Shown piece by piece: positions 3,468-37,020 of a stretch of 64,000 nucleotides of DNA. The stretch spans positions 3,782,001 through 3,846,000 of the forward strand of contig NZ_JAUSXO010000001.1 of NCBI RefSeq assembly GCF_030816075.1. Reading direction: 5' to 3'. How positions within the stretch are numbered: position 1 is the first letter of the stretch; the number at the start of each line of letters is the position of its first letter. The translations under genes and the position numbers were made by a program. The notes under the pieces are model-generated. The model was not told the origin of the DNA and searched no databases. It saw only the letters and a list, made by a program, of their open reading frames with translations. Origin of the DNA: Arthrobacter agilis (GTDB taxonomy: Bacteria; Actinomycetota; Actinomycetes; Actinomycetales; Micrococcaceae).

Positions 3468-3839
3468 TCAGGCGGCCTGGGCCAGCGCCGCCTTCAGCGG
3501 ATAATCCGCCCCGTCCAGGATCAGCTGGGCACAGCGCCCCGTCGAGGGATCCAGGACGATCGGCGCGGCGAGATTGACGGTGGTGCCCCCGGTTCCCGGG
3601 TTGGCGACGACGAACAGGTGCGCCTCCGGCACGTCGGAGCCGAGCACGTCGCGCTGCGCGTCGGAGAAGCGCGGGCTGTAGTGCGGCACATAGGTGGCGG
3701 CGTCCAGGAGGAACAGGCGGACGCCCGGCTCGTCGGCTGCGGTGAGCGTGAACAGCCCGTCCGCGCCCGGCACCTGCTCGAGGTCGAAGCGTGTGCGGGG
3801 CGCGAGGCCCGGGGGAGGGGTGACGAAGGCGGCCCTCAT
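3468..3839 (-). CDS. fliW: Flagellar assembly factor FliW
   Basis: 123 residues, slightly shorter than usual. In Bacillus, FliW binds flagellin and, when free, binds CsrA and relieves CsrA repression of flagellin translation. Family features include the central segment LFLLDAATYVPHYSP and the stretch LFVVANPGTGGTTVNLAAPIVLD, which matches the FliW pattern ending in N-hydrophobic-APIV. It is the last gene of the flgN-flgK-flgL-fliW operon and its start overlaps the flgL stop by 4 bases. Its partner csrA lies 33 kb away, at the other end of the flagellar locus, instead of next door as in Bacillus. Confidence 0.9.
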   Translation of the reverse strand: MRAAFVTPPPGLAPRTRFDLEQVPGADGLFTLTAADEPGVRLFLLDAATYVPHYSPRFSDAQRDVLGSDVPEAHLFVVANPGTGGTTVNLAAPIVLDPSTGRCAQLILDGADYPLKAALAQAA

Positions 3840-4711
3840 CGCAGGAAGTCCATCAGCGAGGGCTGCAGGACGCGGGCCGAGACGGCGAGCGCGCCCTGGT
3901 AGGCGGTCTCCTGCAGTTTGAGGTCCAGGATGATGGACGCGAGGTCGACGTCTTCCACGGCGGCGCGTTCTCCTTCGAGAGCCAGCGAGGCATCGGCGAC
4001 GACATCCTTGGCACCGAGCAGGCGTGCGTGGCGGGTGCCGATCTCACTGTGGTGGGCGGTGAGGTCCTGGATGCGCTGCTGCAGCGGTGCGAGGTGCACG
4101 GACACGTCCTTGCCGGCCCGCAGGTCCGCGGCGATGGTGTCCAGCAGGGCGAAGGCCGAGCCGGGTCCGCTCCCGAAGACGGCGGCGCCGTCGGCGTCGA
4201 CACGGATGGTCTCGTGCGAGCCGACCCGGCGCTCGACGGTCCCGCCCGGCGTGAACGTGAGATCCGGTGCGACGGCGGCGGGGGCGTCGGAGTTCCCGGC
4301 GAACAGGAAGCGGCCCCCATAGGTGGCATTGGCCTGGGCCATGAGCTCGGTGCGCAGCGACTCGATGTTCAGTGCCAGCGCCTCGCGGGCGGTCGGCGGC
4401 AGGGCCGAGTTGGAGCCCTGCAGCGTCAGGTCGTTCGCGGTGTCGAGGGCCCGCTTCGACATCGTCATCGCGTTGTCGAGCTGGGTCAGCCACCCTTCTC
4501 CGTCGGCGATGTTCCGGCCGTACTGCTGGTTGGCGCCGATCTCGGCGCGGACCCGGAGGGCCTCGGCCGCGGCGGCGGGGTCGTCCGACGGGCGGCCGAT
4601 GGCCTTCTGGCTGGACGCCTTCTCCTGCAGGTCCGCGAGGCGGGCGAGGTTCACCTGCAGGGAGCGCTGGGCTCCGTGCAGCATGGTCTGGTTGGTGACG
4701 CGGGTGATCAT
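3836..4711 (-). CDS. flgL: Flagellar hook-filament junction protein FlgL
   Basis: 291 residues. FlgL (HAP3) joins the hook to the filament. The N-terminal helix (RVTNQTMLHGAQRSLQVNL) and the C-terminal coiled-coil region, with DVDLASIILDLKLQETAYQGAL, are typical of the flagellin/FlgL D0-D1 fold. Its order after flgK and before fliW matches Gram-positive late-flagellar operons. The ATG lies 9 bases after the flgK stop. Confidence 0.93.
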   Translation of the reverse strand: MITRVTNQTMLHGAQRSLQVNLARLADLQEKASSQKAIGRPSDDPAAAAEALRVRAEIGANQQYGRNIADGEGWLTQLDNAMTMSKRALDTANDLTLQGSNSALPPTAREALALNIESLRTELMAQANATYGGRFLFAGNSDAPAAVAPDLTFTPGGTVERRVGSHETIRVDADGAAVFGSGPGSAFALLDTIAADLRAGKDVSVHLAPLQQRIQDLTAHHSEIGTRHARLLGAKDVVADASLALEGERAAVEDVDLASIILDLKLQETAYQGALAVSARVLQPSLMDFLR

Positions 4712-8423: not shown

Positions 8424-10658
8424 TCAGCCCCGCTGGACCACCAGGGGGCTGCCGTCGGGGTCCGTGGCCAGGGCGTGGGCGCTGATCCAGGGGGCCACGC
8501 CGGCGGCCGGAAGGGGCCGGGCGAAGTGGAAGCCCTGCGCGAGATCGCACCCGAGCGCCCGCAGTTCCGCCCGGGTCGCCTCGTTGTCCACTCCTTCGGC
8601 GACCACCCGCAGGTCCAGGCTGTGCGCCAGGTCGATGATGGAGCCTACGAGACCCTGCGCGCGCCGATCGGTCCGCATGGCCGTGATGAAGGACCGGTCG
8701 AGCTTGAGTTCGTCGGCGGGGAGATCGCGCAGGTACGCCAGGGAGCTGTACCCGGTGCCGAAGTCGTCGATGGAGATCTGGATGCCCTTCGCGCGAAGCC
8801 GCGCGAGGATCTTCGCCGTATGGGCCGGGTTCCTCATCAGCATGTCCTCGGTGATCTCGAGCATGAGGCACTCGGGCAGGGTCCCGCACTCCTCGAGGAG
8901 GAGGCGGATCTGCCGGGGGAGTCCGTCCTGGATGCACGAACCGGACAGGTTCACGGCGACGCTGATCTCCAGTCCCTCGGCCCTCCACCGGGCGGCCTGC
9001 TCCACGGCGTCCCTGAGCACGAGCGCGGAGATCGCCGGCATCAGGCCCGCCTCCTCCGCGAGGGGCAGGAACGACGTCGGCGGCAGCTGCCCGAGGAGGG
9101 GGTGGTTCCAGCGGATGAGGGCCTCGACGCTGGTCACGGCGCCGTCGGGCAGGTTCACCTTGGGCTGGTAGTTCAGCTCGAACTGGCCCTCGACGAGCGC
9201 CAGGCGCAGTTCCTCGAGGGTCTTCAGTTTCCGTGCGCCGCCGTCGTCGTCCATCGAGCTGTAGATGTGGTGCCCGCTCCGGTCCGACTTCGCCCGGAAC
9301 ATCGCGATGTCCGCCTTGCGCATCAGCAGGGTGACGTCGGTGCCGTTGTCCGGGGTGAGCGCGATGCCGATGCTGACGCTCACCTTCAGGGAGGCCGTGC
9401 CCACCTGGATCGGCTCGTCGAGTTCCGCTTCAAGCCGCCGGGCCACGATGAGGGCTTCCTCCCTCGACACGTCGTTCAGGAACACCGCGAACTCGTCACC
9501 GCCAAGGCGTGCCAGCAGATCACTGGACCGCACCTGCCGGGTGAAGCGCTCGCTGACCTGCACGAGGAGGGCGTCGCCGACGTCGTGTCCCAGCGCGTCG
9601 TTGACGTCCTTGAACCGGTCGAGGTCCATGAAAAGCAGGGCGCCGACGCGATTCCCGCCCACGCGTCGGGGAAGATCGGCGACCAGCCCCCGGCGGTTCG
9701 GAAGCCCTGTCAGCTCGTCCGTGGTCGCGAGGATCCCCAGCATGCGGTTCCGGAAGAGGAGAGGCGCAGCCGTCAGGAGCAGGGTGAGGGCGGCGAGCAC
9801 CTGGGCGACCAGCGGGATGGAGACCTGGCAGCCGATGATCAGGACGGCGAGCGCCGACACCGTGGACACCATCAGCGTGGTGAGGGCGGGCAGGCCACGG
9901 TCACGGTGGCGGACCGACGGATCGGACCGGGCGACGCCGTCGACCCACACCGCGATCCCCACGAGCCCCACGATCCAACCGGCGTCGGTGACCGTGCCGA
10001 CCGCGTAGTCCGCCATGCCCAGCGCATAGGCGATGTCCGCGGCGGAGAAGAGGATCAGGCCGGCGATGAGCAGTGGCCAGCGCGGTCCCAGATCGAGCCC
10101 ACGGGAGGCCAGCAGGCCGCCCACGGTGGTGACGAGCAGGAGATCGAGCAGGGGGTAGATGACAGCGAGGACCACTTCGAGCGTGGTGCCGCCGGTCGCC
10201 CCGGAGCGCAGGACCGGCGCGAGGATCACGGCCATGAGGGAGGCGGCAGCCAATGCCCCCACGAGGCTGTCCAGCAGCAGCGGCCAGGCCACGCCCTTCA
10301 GCTTCCGTACCGTCACGGCGAGGGCGCCGATCATGAACGGATAGAACAGGAGGTACGCCACATCCGCGACCGAGACGACGGCGAGGGACTCCTCCCCGTT
10401 CGCCGCCACGAGATAGTAGAGGTCCCCGGCGGTGTAGACGGCGACGGCGGCGGCACCGAACAGGATCTGCCACTGGGACCAGCGTGTCCGCCGAAGTGCG
10501 CTGACGCACACGGCGACGGCACCGAGTTCCACGACCATGCCGAGCCATGCGCCGAACAGGTTGAACCGGGCGGGGTCGCCGAGCAGGAGGACGGCGATGT
10601 ACAGCGGTAGCGCCATGACGGTCACGATGACCAGGACGCGGGAGACATCCGCCCGCAT
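8424..10658 (-). CDS. Membrane GGDEF-EAL protein (c-di-GMP turnover)
   Basis: About 744 residues from the ATG at 10658; an ATG at 10715 would add 19 polar residues. Around nine membrane segments fill the first 300 residues. Next come a GGDEF domain (LARLGGDEFAVFL) and an EAL domain (SVEALIRWNHP, then EITEDMLM, then DDFGTGYSSLAYL, ending in AEGVDNEATRAELRALGCDLAQGF). Core motifs of both domains are intact, so it may both make and degrade cyclic di-GMP. Cyclic di-GMP commonly controls motility, which fits its place between the flgN operon and fliC. It has no visible sigma-28-like promoter. The signal sensed by the membrane part is unknown. Confidence 0.9.
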   Translation of the reverse strand: MRADVSRVLVIVTVMALPLYIAVLLLGDPARFNLFGAWLGMVVELGAVAVCVSALRRTRWSQWQILFGAAAVAVYTAGDLYYLVAANGEESLAVVSVADVAYLLFYPFMIGALAVTVRKLKGVAWPLLLDSLVGALAAASLMAVILAPVLRSGATGGTTLEVVLAVIYPLLDLLLVTTVGGLLASRGLDLGPRWPLLIAGLILFSAADIAYALGMADYAVGTVTDAGWIVGLVGIAVWVDGVARSDPSVRHRDRGLPALTTLMVSTVSALAVLIIGCQVSIPLVAQVLAALTLLLTAAPLLFRNRMLGILATTDELTGLPNRRGLVADLPRRVGGNRVGALLFMDLDRFKDVNDALGHDVGDALLVQVSERFTRQVRSSDLLARLGGDEFAVFLNDVSREEALIVARRLEAELDEPIQVGTASLKVSVSIGIALTPDNGTDVTLLMRKADIAMFRAKSDRSGHHIYSSMDDDGGARKLKTLEELRLALVEGQFELNYQPKVNLPDGAVTSVEALIRWNHPLLGQLPPTSFLPLAEEAGLMPAISALVLRDAVEQAARWRAEGLEISVAVNLSGSCIQDGLPRQIRLLLEECGTLPECLMLEITEDMLMRNPAHTAKILARLRAKGIQISIDDFGTGYSSLAYLRDLPADELKLDRSFITAMRTDRRAQGLVGSIIDLAHSLDLRVVAEGVDNEATRAELRALGCDLAQGFHFARPLPAAGVAPWISAHALATDPDGSPLVVQRG

Positions 10659-10872
10659 CGCACCAGCCCTGCCGGCCACACGGGCATCAGCACCCACCCT
10701 GCACATCCTTCGCATCGACGATCAGGAACCTGACCATCGACGAGCTTAGGGCGGTGGCGCGGGCGCAAACCCGGATTCGGCCTGTTGCGCTCCAACTTGC
10801 TGTCAAACCTTGGGCTACCTTGCGCCTATTCAGATCCCAGGGGCGACGTCGGAAAAAGTTTGCGCCGAGTTC

Positions 10873-10899
10873 TAACGTTCTCCCGCATGCCTCCGATAG
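10873..10899 (+). promoter_or_regulatory. Sigma-28-like promoter of fliC
   Basis: TAAC, 15 bases, TCCGATAG. The box lies 61-87 bases before the fliC ATG. The predicted start is near 10906, giving a leader of about 54 nt. The same box recurs before flgB and fliM. Confidence 0.8.
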
Positions 10900-10910
10900 C
10901 TACGGTTGCA

Positions 10911-10951
10911 GGCCCATGGATGGGCCGGCGATAGCAGCCCTTTCACGGAGG
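10911..10951 (+). promoter_or_regulatory. fliC leader: GGA hairpin plus GGA in the Shine-Dalgarno, candidate CsrA site pair
   Basis: GGCCC (10911-10915) pairs with GGGCC (10922-10926), leaving loop ATGGAT, which shows ANGGA. The Shine-Dalgarno ACGGAGG (10945-10951) holds a second GGA about 29 bases on. CsrA dimers bind two such sites and block ribosome entry, as shown for Bacillus hag. Binding here is a prediction. Confidence 0.6.
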
Positions 10952-10959
10952 AATACATC

Positions 10960-11835
10960 ATGGGTTTCCAGATCAACACCAACACCGCGGCCAACACCGC
11001 ATACCGCAACCTCTCCAGCACCCAGGGCGACATGTCCAAGTCGCTCGAGAAGCTGTCCAGCGGTCTCCGCATCAACCGTGCAGCCGATGACGCTGCCGGC
11101 CTGTCCATCTCCGAGGGCCTGCGTTCGCAGATCAGCGGGCTTGGGGTTGCAGCCCGCAACGCCCAGGACGGCATCAGCGTTGTCCAGACCGCTGAAGGTG
11201 CACTGACCGAGGTCCACAGCATCCTGCAGCGCGTCCGCGACCTGGCTGTTCAATCGGGCAACGACTCGAACAACACGGAGGCGCGCATCGCGATCCAGAC
11301 CGAGGTCACCGCACTCGCGGACGAACTCACCCGGATCGGCAGCTCGACGAACTTCAATGGCATCGACCTCCTCGCCGCGGACAAGTCCCTGACGTTCCAG
11401 GTCGGCGCCGGTGACAAAGCATCAAACGATCAGGTCAGTGTCAAGCTGACTAACGTCACGACGATCGCGAATGCTATCGGCGGCACCCCGGGCGCCGCTG
11501 ATGCTAACGGCACTCCTGGCGCGAGGACAGGTGGGTTGAAGTTTGACTCAGCTGGCGAGGCGCTTAAGTCGATCACAGCGATCGATGCGCAGATTGAGAA
11601 GGTGTCGCAGGCTCGCTCGGAGCTCGGTGCCGTGCAGAACCGCTTCGAGTCGGCGATCAACAGCATCAACGTCTCGCAGGAGAACCTCTCGGCGGCCAAG
11701 TCCCGCATCACCGACACCGACATGGCGAAGGAGATGGCGGACTTCACCCGTTCGAACATCCTCTCGCAGGCCGGCACCGCGATGCTGGCGCAGGCCAACC
11801 AGATGAACCAGGGTGTCCTTCAGCTCCTCCGCTAA
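10960..11835 (+). CDS. fliC: Flagellin
   Basis: 291 residues from the ATG at 10960, 8 bases after GGAGG. It is the filament subunit. It has an N-terminal D0/D1 (INTNTAANTAYRNL, then LSSGLRINRAADDAAGL) and a C-terminal D1/D0 (ENLSAAKSRITDTDMAKEM, ending ANQMNQGVLQLLR). Only about 70 residues lie between these, so outer domains D2/D3 are missing and the filament should be smooth. The middle part (about 11410-11600) uses AT-ending codons (AAA, TCA, GAT, ACT, GCT) much more than its flanks. It has its own sigma-28-like promoter and a leader with candidate CsrA sites. Confidence 0.97.
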   Translation: MGFQINTNTAANTAYRNLSSTQGDMSKSLEKLSSGLRINRAADDAAGLSISEGLRSQISGLGVAARNAQDGISVVQTAEGALTEVHSILQRVRDLAVQSGNDSNNTEARIAIQTEVTALADELTRIGSSTNFNGIDLLAADKSLTFQVGAGDKASNDQVSVKLTNVTTIANAIGGTPGAADANGTPGARTGGLKFDSAGEALKSITAIDAQIEKVSQARSELGAVQNRFESAINSINVSQENLSAAKSRITDTDMAKEMADFTRSNILSQAGTAMLAQANQMNQGVLQLLR

Positions 11836-11862
11836 GCGGTGAGTATGTAGGCGAAAGGTGCA

Positions 11863-11903
11863 CGGTGGCGGGACTGATCCTGGACCGAGAGGTCCCCCCA
11901 CCG
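11863..11903 (+). terminator. Imperfect stem-loop after fliC
   Basis: CGGTGGCGGGA (11863-11873) pairs with TCCCCCCACCG (11893-11903) with one mismatch. It lies 28 bases after the fliC stop. It has no T-run, so termination or mRNA stabilisation are both possible. Confidence 0.4.
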
Positions 11904-11977
11904 CGCATTCGCCAGATAGCAGTCCTGACAGACCATTAGATCGACCGGCAGTACATCCAGCCCCGAGAGGTAGACCC

Positions 11978-13351
11978 ATGGCGTTCTCCATCGACGGCAT
12001 CGCCAGCGGGCTGGACACCACGAACATGATCAACCAGCTCATGCAGCTGGAAGCACGCCCTCAGACGCTGCTCAAGGCGAAGGCAACCTCGACGCAGGGC
12101 TTCATCACGGTCCTGCAGCAACTGAACACCCGTTTGAGTTCCCTGACCGAGCTCGCGACGAAGACCGCCAAGCCCCAGGCGCTCGATCTCTACAAGGCCG
12201 CCTCCACGAGTGACACCGTCACCGCCACGGCGACCTCGTCCGCCGGCGCCGGCACCCTCGACTTCACCGTGAAGCAGCTCGCCTCCTCACAGTCCTCCGT
12301 CACGGGCGTGATGACGGCGTTCTCGCCGGGACCCACCACCCTGACCCTGCGTGCGGCGGACGGCACCACCACCGAGGTGGCGACCACCGGCACCCTCGAC
12401 GACGTCGTCGCCCAGGTGAACAAGGCCGACGTCGGCATCACGGCCACGAAGGTCAGCGCCGGGAAGGACGCCGACGGCGTCGCCCAGTACCGGCTGCAGT
12501 TCACCGCGAAGGAATCGGGCACCGAACACGGCTTCTCCGTGTTCCGCGGCACTGCCGCCGACGTCACCGCAGGGACCGCGACCAACCTCTTCACCGAGAC
12601 CGGCGCCGCCACCGTCCGCACTGCCCGGAACGCCGAGGTGGTCCTCTGGGGTGGCACGGCGGCCGAGCAGACCGTCACGTCGTCGTCGAACACCTTCGCC
12701 GACATCCTCCCCGGTGTCTCCGTCACGGTCAGCAAGACCACCACCGAACCCGTGTCCGTGACCGTCTCCCGTGACGCCGAAGCCACCTCGGCGAAGGCGA
12801 AGGAACTGGTGGAGGCGCTGCGCAGCGTCTTTTCCTTCGTGGACACCAACACCAAGGTCACGCCGGGCGCGACGGCCAGTGCTGCCCCCATCTCGGGCCG
12901 ATTCACGGGTGACAGTGCCGTCCGGGGCATCGCCCAGTCCGTGCTCACCGCGGCGACGGCGCCCATCAACGGGCGGTCGACGTCGGAGCTCGGCATCACG
13001 CTGACCCGCTCCGGAACCGTGGAATTCGACGCCGAGAAGTTCGCCAAAGCACTCGCCGCCAACCCGGACCAGGTGAAGGACGCCCTCACGCAGCTGTCCG
13101 TCCGCGTAGCCGATGCAGGGAAGGCGGCCTCGGACAAGTACGACGGCGAACTCACGAGCCGGATCAAGAGCCAGGAGTCGACGGTCCGCAACCTCAATGA
13201 CCAGGTGTCCGGCTGGGACCAGCGGCTCGAGAAGCGCCGGGCGACCCTTGAACGCACATACTCGGCGCTCGAGGTCCAACTGTCACAACTCCAATCGCAG
13301 GGCGACTGGCTGTCATCCCAGCTGGCCGGCCTGCCCACCACCGGAAGCTAG
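11978..13351 (+). CDS. fliD: Flagellar cap protein FliD
   Basis: 457 residues from the ATG at 11978 (GAGAGG 7 bases upstream). An earlier in-frame start adds 40 Pro-rich residues and is unlikely. FliD (HAP2) caps the filament and helps flagellin fold into place. The N-terminus FSIDGIASGLDTTNMINQLM matches the family, and the C-terminal coiled coil ends YSALEVQLSQLQSQ. It is followed at once by fliS. I see no clear sigma-28-like box between fliC and fliD, so it may be read through from fliC. Confidence 0.93.
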   Translation: MAFSIDGIASGLDTTNMINQLMQLEARPQTLLKAKATSTQGFITVLQQLNTRLSSLTELATKTAKPQALDLYKAASTSDTVTATATSSAGAGTLDFTVKQLASSQSSVTGVMTAFSPGPTTLTLRAADGTTTEVATTGTLDDVVAQVNKADVGITATKVSAGKDADGVAQYRLQFTAKESGTEHGFSVFRGTAADVTAGTATNLFTETGAATVRTARNAEVVLWGGTAAEQTVTSSSNTFADILPGVSVTVSKTTTEPVSVTVSRDAEATSAKAKELVEALRSVFSFVDTNTKVTPGATASAAPISGRFTGDSAVRGIAQSVLTAATAPINGRSTSELGITLTRSGTVEFDAEKFAKALAANPDQVKDALTQLSVRVADAGKAASDKYDGELTSRIKSQESTVRNLNDQVSGWDQRLEKRRATLERTYSALEVQLSQLQSQGDWLSSQLAGLPTTGS

Positions 13352-13356
13352 TCAAG

Positions 13357-13803
13357 ATGCTGCAGATGAACGGATACCAGGCCAAGCGCTCGCAGTACGT
13401 GCAGGACGCCGTCCTGTCCGCAACGCCGGCGGGGCTGCTGACCATGCTCTACGACCGGCTGCTGCTCGACCTCGCCCGGGCCGGTGCCGCCCAGGAGGCG
13501 GGGGACTGGGGCACGGCCTCGTCGAACCTGCTGCACGCACAGGACATCGTCGGCGAGCTCATGTCCTCGCTCCGCACCGACGTGTGGGACGGAGCGGAGG
13601 GCCTGATGTCCCTCTACACCTACGTACGCCAGACGCTCCTCGAGGCCAACACCCGGCGGGACCGCACCAGGACCGCGGAATGCGCCGAGATCCTGGAGCC
13701 CCTGCGTCAGGCATGGCACGAGGCCGCTCGCACGGGCCAGCCGGCGCCAGTGGCCCAGAACCAGGACGCGCCACGCTCACTCGGAGTCCTCGGCGTTGGC
13801 TGA
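13357..13803 (+). CDS. fliS: Flagellin export chaperone FliS
   Basis: 148 residues. FliS binds the C-terminal D0 helix of flagellin in the cytosol and keeps it unfolded for export. The N-terminus NGYQAKRSQYVQDAVLSATP and the LLTMLYDRLLLDLARA helix are typical. The C-terminal tail is longer and Pro-rich. The ATG lies 5 bases after the fliD stop, giving the usual fliD-fliS pair. Confidence 0.92.
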   Translation: MLQMNGYQAKRSQYVQDAVLSATPAGLLTMLYDRLLLDLARAGAAQEAGDWGTASSNLLHAQDIVGELMSSLRTDVWDGAEGLMSLYTYVRQTLLEANTRRDRTRTAECAEILEPLRQAWHEAARTGQPAPVAQNQDAPRSLGVLGVG

Positions 13804-36390: not shown

Positions 36391-36666
36391 ATGCTTGTTC
36401 TAACGCGAAAGGTCGGGGAGCAGATCCTGATCGGCGACGACATCGTCATCACGGTGCTCGATTCCCGCGGCGACGGCATCCGCATCGGGATCGACGCGCC
36501 GCGGGGCGTGAAGATCCAGCGCGAGGAGGTCCTGCGTGCCGTCACGGAGGCGAACCTCGCCGCCGCGGCCGCCGACGCCGCGGGTGCCGACGCCCTGAAG
36601 GCCCTGCTGCAGTCCGGAGCGGTGGTCAGTACCGACGGCGGCCAGGACGACCCGCCCGGCGTCTAA
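36391..36666 (+). CDS. csrA: Carbon storage regulator CsrA
   Basis: 91 residues. CsrA is a dimeric RNA-binding protein that binds GGA motifs in mRNA leaders and blocks translation. The core MLVLTRKVGEQILIGDDIVI and GIDAPRGVKIQREEV is fully conserved, including the RNA-contacting Arg in LTRK and Arg in IQRE. It has a longer Ala/Asp-rich tail. It closes the fliM operon, while its antagonist fliW closes the flgN operon. fliC and flgB leaders carry candidate sites. CsrA is not common in actinobacteria and here travels with flagella. Confidence 0.95.
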   Translation: MLVLTRKVGEQILIGDDIVITVLDSRGDGIRIGIDAPRGVKIQREEVLRAVTEANLAAAAADAAGADALKALLQSGAVVSTDGGQDDPPGV

Positions 36667-36777: not shown

Positions 36778-37020
36778 ATGGCTACTGGAGAAACCGGATT
36801 CGACGACGTCTCGTTCGACCTCATCTCCCTGCAGTACCACTCCCTGAAGGCCGGTCACGATTACGGCCAGTACGTGCGCGACGCCCGCAACGCCGGCCGT
36901 GACGACATCGCCGACTTCTTCGAGCAGGTCATGGCCCAGGATTCCGAGCGGGCCGCGAAGTGCCACGCGTTCCTGGGGGAGCTGACCGGGTCCTCGGAGT
37001 CCGGTCCGGCGATGGGCTGA
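36778..37020 (+). CDS. Small conserved helical protein
   Basis: 80 residues with an excellent Shine-Dalgarno (ACGGAGGT). I recall similar small actinobacterial proteins, but they have no assigned function. Two helices are likely (FDLISLQYHSLKAGHDYGQY and DIADFFEQVMAQDSERAAKC), an arrangement resembling ferritin-like or DUF2383-type helix pairs. A TAGCCT box (about 36736-36741) could be its -10. It is monocistronic and ends at a strong hairpin. Confidence 0.7.
   Translation: MATGETGFDDVSFDLISLQYHSLKAGHDYGQYVRDARNAGRDDIADFFEQVMAQDSERAAKCHAFLGELTGSSESGPAMG

Follow-up and report, generated by a model that had tools for sequence, protein, structure and literature searches.

A conserved two-site leader of the flagellin gene fliC in Micrococcaceae, a predicted CsrA target under FliW control

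The flagellar locus and the fliC leader

The window analysed here, that is, the whole stretch of 64,000 nucleotides of Arthrobacter agilis DNA, carries a flagellar locus that includes fliC (10960..11835, plus strand), which codes for a flagellin of 291 aa (PF00669, 4e-47; PF00700, 2e-28), and, downstream on the same strand, fliD (11858..13351; PF07195, 4e-32; PF02465, 5e-18), which codes for the filament cap, and fliS (13357..13803; PF02561, 1e-30), which codes for the flagellin export chaperone. A gene for a GGDEF-EAL protein (8424-10715, minus strand) is divergent from fliC, the upstream region being common to both. A preliminary description of this DNA had also placed csrA and fliW in the locus, and Pfam confirms both assignments. 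fliW (3468..3839, minus strand; PF02623, E 2e-16), which follows flgL (3836-4711, named by reading), codes for a predicted CsrA antagonist and flagellin-binding protein. csrA (36391..36666, plus strand; PF02599, E 9e-24), the single match in the 3.86-Mb genome, codes for a protein with L4, R44, V51 and N55, and comes after flhA and one ORF with no Pfam match, at 32.9 kb from fliW.

The fliC leader contains two predicted CsrA-type sites on the plus strand. The upstream one is a hairpin (10911..10926) formed by GGCCC (10911-10915) and GGGCC (10922-10926) around the loop ATGGAT (10916-10921), an ANGGAN hexaloop, and the second one, TCACGGAGGA (10943..10952), lies over the Shine-Dalgarno and includes ACGGA (10945-10949). 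The two GGA triplets are 29 nt apart and the fliC ATG is at 10960, so that the two-site layout of the preliminary description is borne out. Transcription would depend on a predicted sigma-28-like promoter (10873..10898, plus strand), recognised as a sequence pattern composed of TAAC (10873-10876), a 16-nt spacer and CCGATA (10893-10898), and, judging only from this pattern, would start near 10905. A loose pattern of this type (TAAC/TTAC-N13-19-CCGATA) was matched in 109 of 109 Micrococcaceae fliC leaders, and a simple sigma-70 scan detected no promoter. The best match of the genome to a FliA/WhiG-like sigma factor (G000:C1:1114728-1115357, L321; a 304-aa frame, E 4e-36, below the NCBIfam cut-off) is found outside the flagellar locus. 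In one relative (G133), what appears by reading to be the C-terminus of a sigma factor lies directly upstream of fliC (L113).

Within the 64-kb window, the fliC leader is the sole place where a hairpin with an ANGGAN hexaloop and a stem of 4 bp or more precedes ANGGA and a start codon, an arrangement expected by chance at a mean of 0.1 (ten simulated windows). ANGGAN hairpins of at least 5 bp are not rare by themselves (3 in the window against 1.0 expected), and some ANGGA is present near the start of 11 of 26 window genes, fliC among them. At the Rfam gathering score no described leader RNA was matched in the window, where only a tRNA reaches threshold, and a search of the genome itself with a covariance model of the leader returned, besides the fliC leader, just one further match (E 1.85, part-length).

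A small ORF after csrA (36778-37020, 80 aa, no Pfam match, with an AYGGAGGT Shine-Dalgarno) was considered as a second CsrA target, since it shows ACGGAGG at the Shine-Dalgarno and ACGGAT 35 nt upstream, and was rejected. Homologues were matched in 17 of the 38 genus genomes searched, mostly with 86-99% identity, several of them in genomes without csrA and flagellin. In all 16 genomes with a readable start AYGGAGG is kept, including 7 without csrA, and the upstream ACGGAT occurs only in the window and in G305. Because this ORF keeps such a Shine-Dalgarno in relatives without csrA, AYGGAGG at that position is not diagnostic by itself.

Conservation of the leader and its match with csrA

Both sites (CCANGGANGG and TCAYGGAGGA) were found in 125 of 125 leaders from 122 csrA-containing Micrococcaceae genomes (the leaders of G029, G335 and G362 were left out), with a spacing between the two GGAs of 28-38 nt. 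Six hexaloop variants are present among these leaders, ATGGAT (43), ACGGAC (35), ACGGAT (29), ATGGAC (9), ACGGAA (5) and AAGGAT (4), so that position 1 (A) and positions 3-5 (GGA) are constant and the variation is confined to positions 2 and 6, in agreement with the ANGGAN recognition rule of RsmE (PMC7652899).

Covariation was measured in an alignment of 98 distinct leaders, taken from the first 109 after leaving out 11 identical ones. The seven-pair stem has 89.9% standard pairs (73.3 in shuffled alignments), 113 cells changed on both sides (43.3 shuffled) and a covariation score of 0.389 (0.118 shuffled), and none of these three values was reached in 500 shuffles. GGTCC/GGACC occurs as a natural variant of the GGCCC/GGGCC stem. 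Slid controls, in which the relatedness of the sequences is kept, reach at most 54.7% pairs, 37 cells and a score of 0.101. Two of the five stem covariation measures were no higher than in the shuffles, namely the pairs with changes on both sides (4 against 4.0) and the further pair types (13 against 13.4). RNAalifold, run without a supplied structure, returned exactly the 10911-10926 hairpin, with a small covariation term (-0.64). In ensemble folding, the loop-closing pairs exceed a probability of 0.5 in 122 of 125 leaders folded alone and in 103 of 125 folded with 30 nt of coding sequence, the corresponding means for the window being 0.97 and 0.35. The two-site leader is confirmed as a real feature, with support well beyond what a single sequence can provide.

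The presence of the leader was compared with that of csrA in 395 Micrococcaceae genomes, related species whose counts do not represent independent events. fliC was found in 127 and csrA in 125 of them: 124 have both, three (G029, G102 and G133) have fliC only, one (G022) has csrA only and 267 have neither. The csrA match of G022 (E 2e-4; G022:C2:46405-46554, L309) has an internal stop codon and a broken frame, and this degraded gene, in a genome with no detectable flagellin, is apparently a fossil of a lost flagellum. The covariance model, searched over the same genomes with the stricter filters of Infernal, gave 128 matches in 125 genomes, 127 of them at a fliC start. Conservation of the hairpin in relatives that keep csrA, a point raised in the preliminary description, was checked in this way: the leader was matched in all 124 genomes that carry both fliC and csrA, a recovery that for most leaders follows by construction, as they had built the model, and in none of the three fliC genomes without detectable csrA. 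Sixteen leaders (L114-L129) and those of G335 and G362 were recovered even though they had not been used to build the model, several of them being nearly identical to rows that had. The absence of matches elsewhere than at fliC is not by construction, and the 268 genomes without fliC gave a single, marginal match (E 0.0097) in G065, where fliC and csrA are both missing. The model finds full leaders, so that CsrA targets with a single site or of a different build are missed by it.

The two flagellated relatives G102 and G133 lack csrA, FliW, the ANGGAN hairpin and TCAYGGAGGA, and keep CCGATA. G133 has no ANGGA within 100 nt before the fliC start, and G102 has AAGGA in an ordinary Shine-Dalgarno, which is compatible with the loose ANGGA rule. 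Both belong to one genus, so their losses count as a single event, and their flagellar genes may be of different origin. FliW (PF02623) was sought in 73 family genomes, which include 64 of the 127 with fliC, and was found in 62 of these 64, being missing from G102 and G133. The third fliC-only genome, G029, has a weak fliC match, FliW and no csrA match, and is 82% complete. A possible second csrA loss, in G590, carries little weight: both sites are absent from this genome, yet FliW is present, the contig is short and the flagellin divergent.

A predicted partner switch and alternative explanations

As judged by sequence comparison, the fliC leader is very probably a two-site CsrA target under a partner switch of the Hag-FliW-CsrA type. 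Since its sites are kept together with csrA and altered in two relatives lacking it, flagellin is probably held back as in Bacillus. The mechanism is taken from that described in B. subtilis (PMC6529632, PMC7652899), from which we infer CsrA binding, repression, relief by FliW and binding of flagellin to FliW. One CsrA dimer would place one of its RNA-binding surfaces on the ANGGAN hexaloop and the other on the Shine-Dalgarno ACGGA, and this bridging of loop and Shine-Dalgarno would block ribosomes. Free FliW would bind CsrA beside its RNA surface, via V51/N55, and release the message, whereas cytoplasmic flagellin would titrate FliW; export of flagellin would then free FliW to remove CsrA, so that flagellin would be translated only while it can be exported.

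Comparative support for this partner switch comes from the two sites, the stem covariation, the invariant recognition bases, the match with csrA and the conserved CsrA residues, and also from one flagellated lineage in which the hairpin site, csrA and FliW are all missing. The preliminary description had predicted a FliW-CsrA switch, a prediction that gains support from the covarying stem, the invariant A.GGA core and the key CsrA residues. L4, R6, R44 and N55 are invariant in 20 of 20 CsrAs hand-picked for spread (that of the window, 11 others of Micrococcaceae and 8 from elsewhere in the phylum); at position 51 there is V in 13 of them, including that of the window, I in 5, M in 1 and L in 1. 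V51 and N55 of C. jejuni CsrA bind FliW, and N55 is needed for FliW binding in both B. subtilis and C. jejuni, the B. subtilis N55D change preventing it (PMC7829508).

It is unlikely that CsrA represses fliC with its activity set by the CsrA level, a divergent FliW being a flagellin chaperone only. The family FliW scores are weak (E 8e-13 to 1e-24 in 62 matches) in comparison with those elsewhere in the phylum (E 5e-23 to 2e-42 in 51 matches, except G709 with 3e-8). In all 49 Micrococcaceae genomes with both genes on one contig, fliW and csrA are separated by 26 kb or more, whereas 42 of 48 other phylum genomes have them no more than 800 bp apart (nearest csrA copy taken). Both observations would suit a FliW that is not an antagonist. 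However, all 20 CsrAs have N55 and 18 of them have V or I at position 51, and FliW, so widely kept in the fliC-containing genomes tested (62 of 64), is missing where csrA and the hairpin site are missing too; G029, which has FliW and no csrA match, is just 82% complete.

The other two alternatives dispense with CsrA. An RNA switch that sequesters the start codon, with AGGCCCATG, close to the 5' end, base-paired to the start-codon sequence CATGGGTTT, corresponds to the minimum-energy fold of 10906-10985 (26 nt of coding sequence included), which involves the 5' stem arm, and the local hairpin of the window becomes the less populated state once 30 nt of coding sequence are added. This pairing, although preferred by single-sequence folding, was rejected because it does not covary: its score equals that of the shuffles (0.107 against 0.105, with 182 of 500 reaching it), and the C and A loop variants break one of its pairs in 57 of 98 leaders. 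Such a switch, which explains neither the invariant GGA nor the match with csrA, is highly improbable. Equally improbable is a hairpin acting as a mere 5' stabiliser next to an ordinary Shine-Dalgarno, the resemblance to CsrA sites being incidental. It is true that AYGGAGG Shine-Dalgarnos exist without csrA, as in the small ORF at 36778 in csrA-less relatives, and that ANGGA is common near window starts (11 of 26 genes, fliC included), but a stabiliser would not hold the A.GGA. loop constant while the stem changes, nor would it vanish from both csrA-less flagellated family genomes whose leaders were read (G102 and G133).

A more tentative extension of the partner switch, which we consider somewhat doubtful, is that CsrA in Micrococcaceae may be a repressor of the flagellin message only, not a global regulator, and that, with no FlgM to be recognised, an uncoupled CsrA-FliW pair may be the sole checkpoint of filament assembly. 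It is suggested by the co-occurrence of csrA and fliC (124 genomes), the absence of both from 267 of 395, the degraded csrA of G022, the position of 127 of 128 model matches at fliC (the other being marginal) and the FlgM result: a FlgM-family protein scored over the cut-off in none of 38 Micrococcaceae genomes tested (with a sub-threshold match in G051) and in 13 of 42 other phylum genomes. This agrees with the literature, in which FlgM is reported missing from Kineococcus radiotolerans and from three further actinobacteria with flagella (PMC2587704) and from later-branching actinobacterial classes (PMC10746217), and makes CsrA-FliW the only filament checkpoint recognised here. The data also hint that fliC is the main CsrA target in Micrococcaceae.

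Known systems and wider distribution

The arrangement resembles the Hag-FliW-CsrA system of B. subtilis in having a flagellin mRNA with two CsrA-type sites, one of them over the Shine-Dalgarno, together with FliW and a CsrA with N55. In the hag leader these sites are BS1 (A51-A55) and BS2 (C75-G82), as quoted in PMC8523840. Unlike in B. subtilis, where translational coupling of fliW and csrA is at least partly responsible for the FliW:CsrA ratio (PMC6529632), fliW and csrA are here separated by 26 kb or more and the coupling, a feature of the B. subtilis locus that we do not take as defining, is missing, so that in Micrococcaceae the ratio must be set otherwise. Two further differences from hag are that no FlgM scores over the cut-off in the 38 family genomes and that the hairpin at the upstream site covaries and has a strict ANGGAN hexaloop. 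The arrangement is also similar to the FliC-FliW-CsrA system of C. difficile, in which FliW counters the repression of flagellin by CsrA and two leader sites have been predicted (PMC8523840), and to FliW-CsrA of C. jejuni, whose FliW-binding CsrA residues correspond to V51/N55 (PMC7829508); those two organisms belong to other phyla and have been studied by experiment, whereas the evidence presented here is comparative.

The idea that CsrA controls flagellin in actinobacteria is not wholly new. It was proposed in 2008 for Kineococcus radiotolerans, also with an actinobacterial flagellin gene and a site overlapping the Shine-Dalgarno, where csrA lies in the motility island and the region matches the Shine-Dalgarno-overlapping BS2 at 9 of 12 bases (PMC2587704). 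That proposal, in the available portion of the paper, names the Shine-Dalgarno site and no upstream hairpin, and the term FliW is absent from the text. Actinobacteria were listed in 2015 among the possible FliW users (PMC4682653). The remark of the preliminary description that no demonstrated actinobacterial case was known to its author holds insofar as none was found in the open literature, including the accessible text of PMC10746217, PMC9019756 and PMC8306008 (subscription papers fell mostly outside the search), and needs to be qualified by the 2008 prediction for Kineococcus (PMC2587704). The covarying upstream site, the match with csrA presence, the joint absence in one lineage, the fliW-csrA split and the hints of fliC as the main target are new. 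In Actinoplanes missouriensis all flagellar genes are transcribed at once, and post-transcriptional control could matter, "although this remains unknown" (review, PMC8306008). The conserved two-site leader offers a concrete and testable checkpoint for actinobacteria without FlgM, as well as an exceptionally clear example of a CsrA that appears to be tied to one message.

In a sample of 396 genomes of the phylum, FliC was found in 54, that of the window included, and among the 53 others csrA is present in 52 and FliW in 51. Leaders were taken one per genome (G413, G453, G522 and G582 were left out), some with uncertain starts, all of which were counted. ANGGA is present at the Shine-Dalgarno in 43 of these 49 leaders, and 17 have a strict ANGGAN hexaloop hairpin with a stem of 4 bp or more, located 20-62 nt ahead of the start, in every case together with the Shine-Dalgarno site; most phylum leaders thus lack the hairpin by this test, which in 200 shuffles gave a mean of 0.28 and a maximum of 3.

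A pattern search over a named collection of 84,980 species gave at least 121 matches in at least 120 stretches. Among the 121 matches listed, 79 are directly before a flagellin ORF and 42 elsewhere, so that the two-site pattern is tied to flagellin strongly, although not exclusively. The flagellin-linked matches listed come from what we take, from their names, to be Micrococcaceae, Microbacteriaceae, Cellulomonas and its relatives, Intrasporangiaceae, Kineococcus, Quadrisphaera and Planosporangium, and the two-site flagellin leader looks old. Among the matches listed, it is also found in one Armatimonadetes and one Acidobacteria metagenome bin (L199 and L250), where contamination is possible. 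Two Cryobacterium stretches (L234 and L279) have a flagellin-type leader, with hairpin and Shine-Dalgarno, that is followed by no flagellin frame, and may be decayed flagellin copies whose leaders have survived. An element of Rhodanobacter and Dyella (L182, L190, L226, L238 and L293) shows two ANGGAN hexaloop hairpins close together in 4 of 5 cases, of the types GCGGCC-ATGGAT-GGCCGC and GCGTTC-ATGGAG-GAACGC, the perfect hairpins being further apart in L190. No Rfam match covers this element, save a sub-threshold sX13 on the other strand of L238, and it may represent a CsrA/RsmA-binding RNA or a repeat family.
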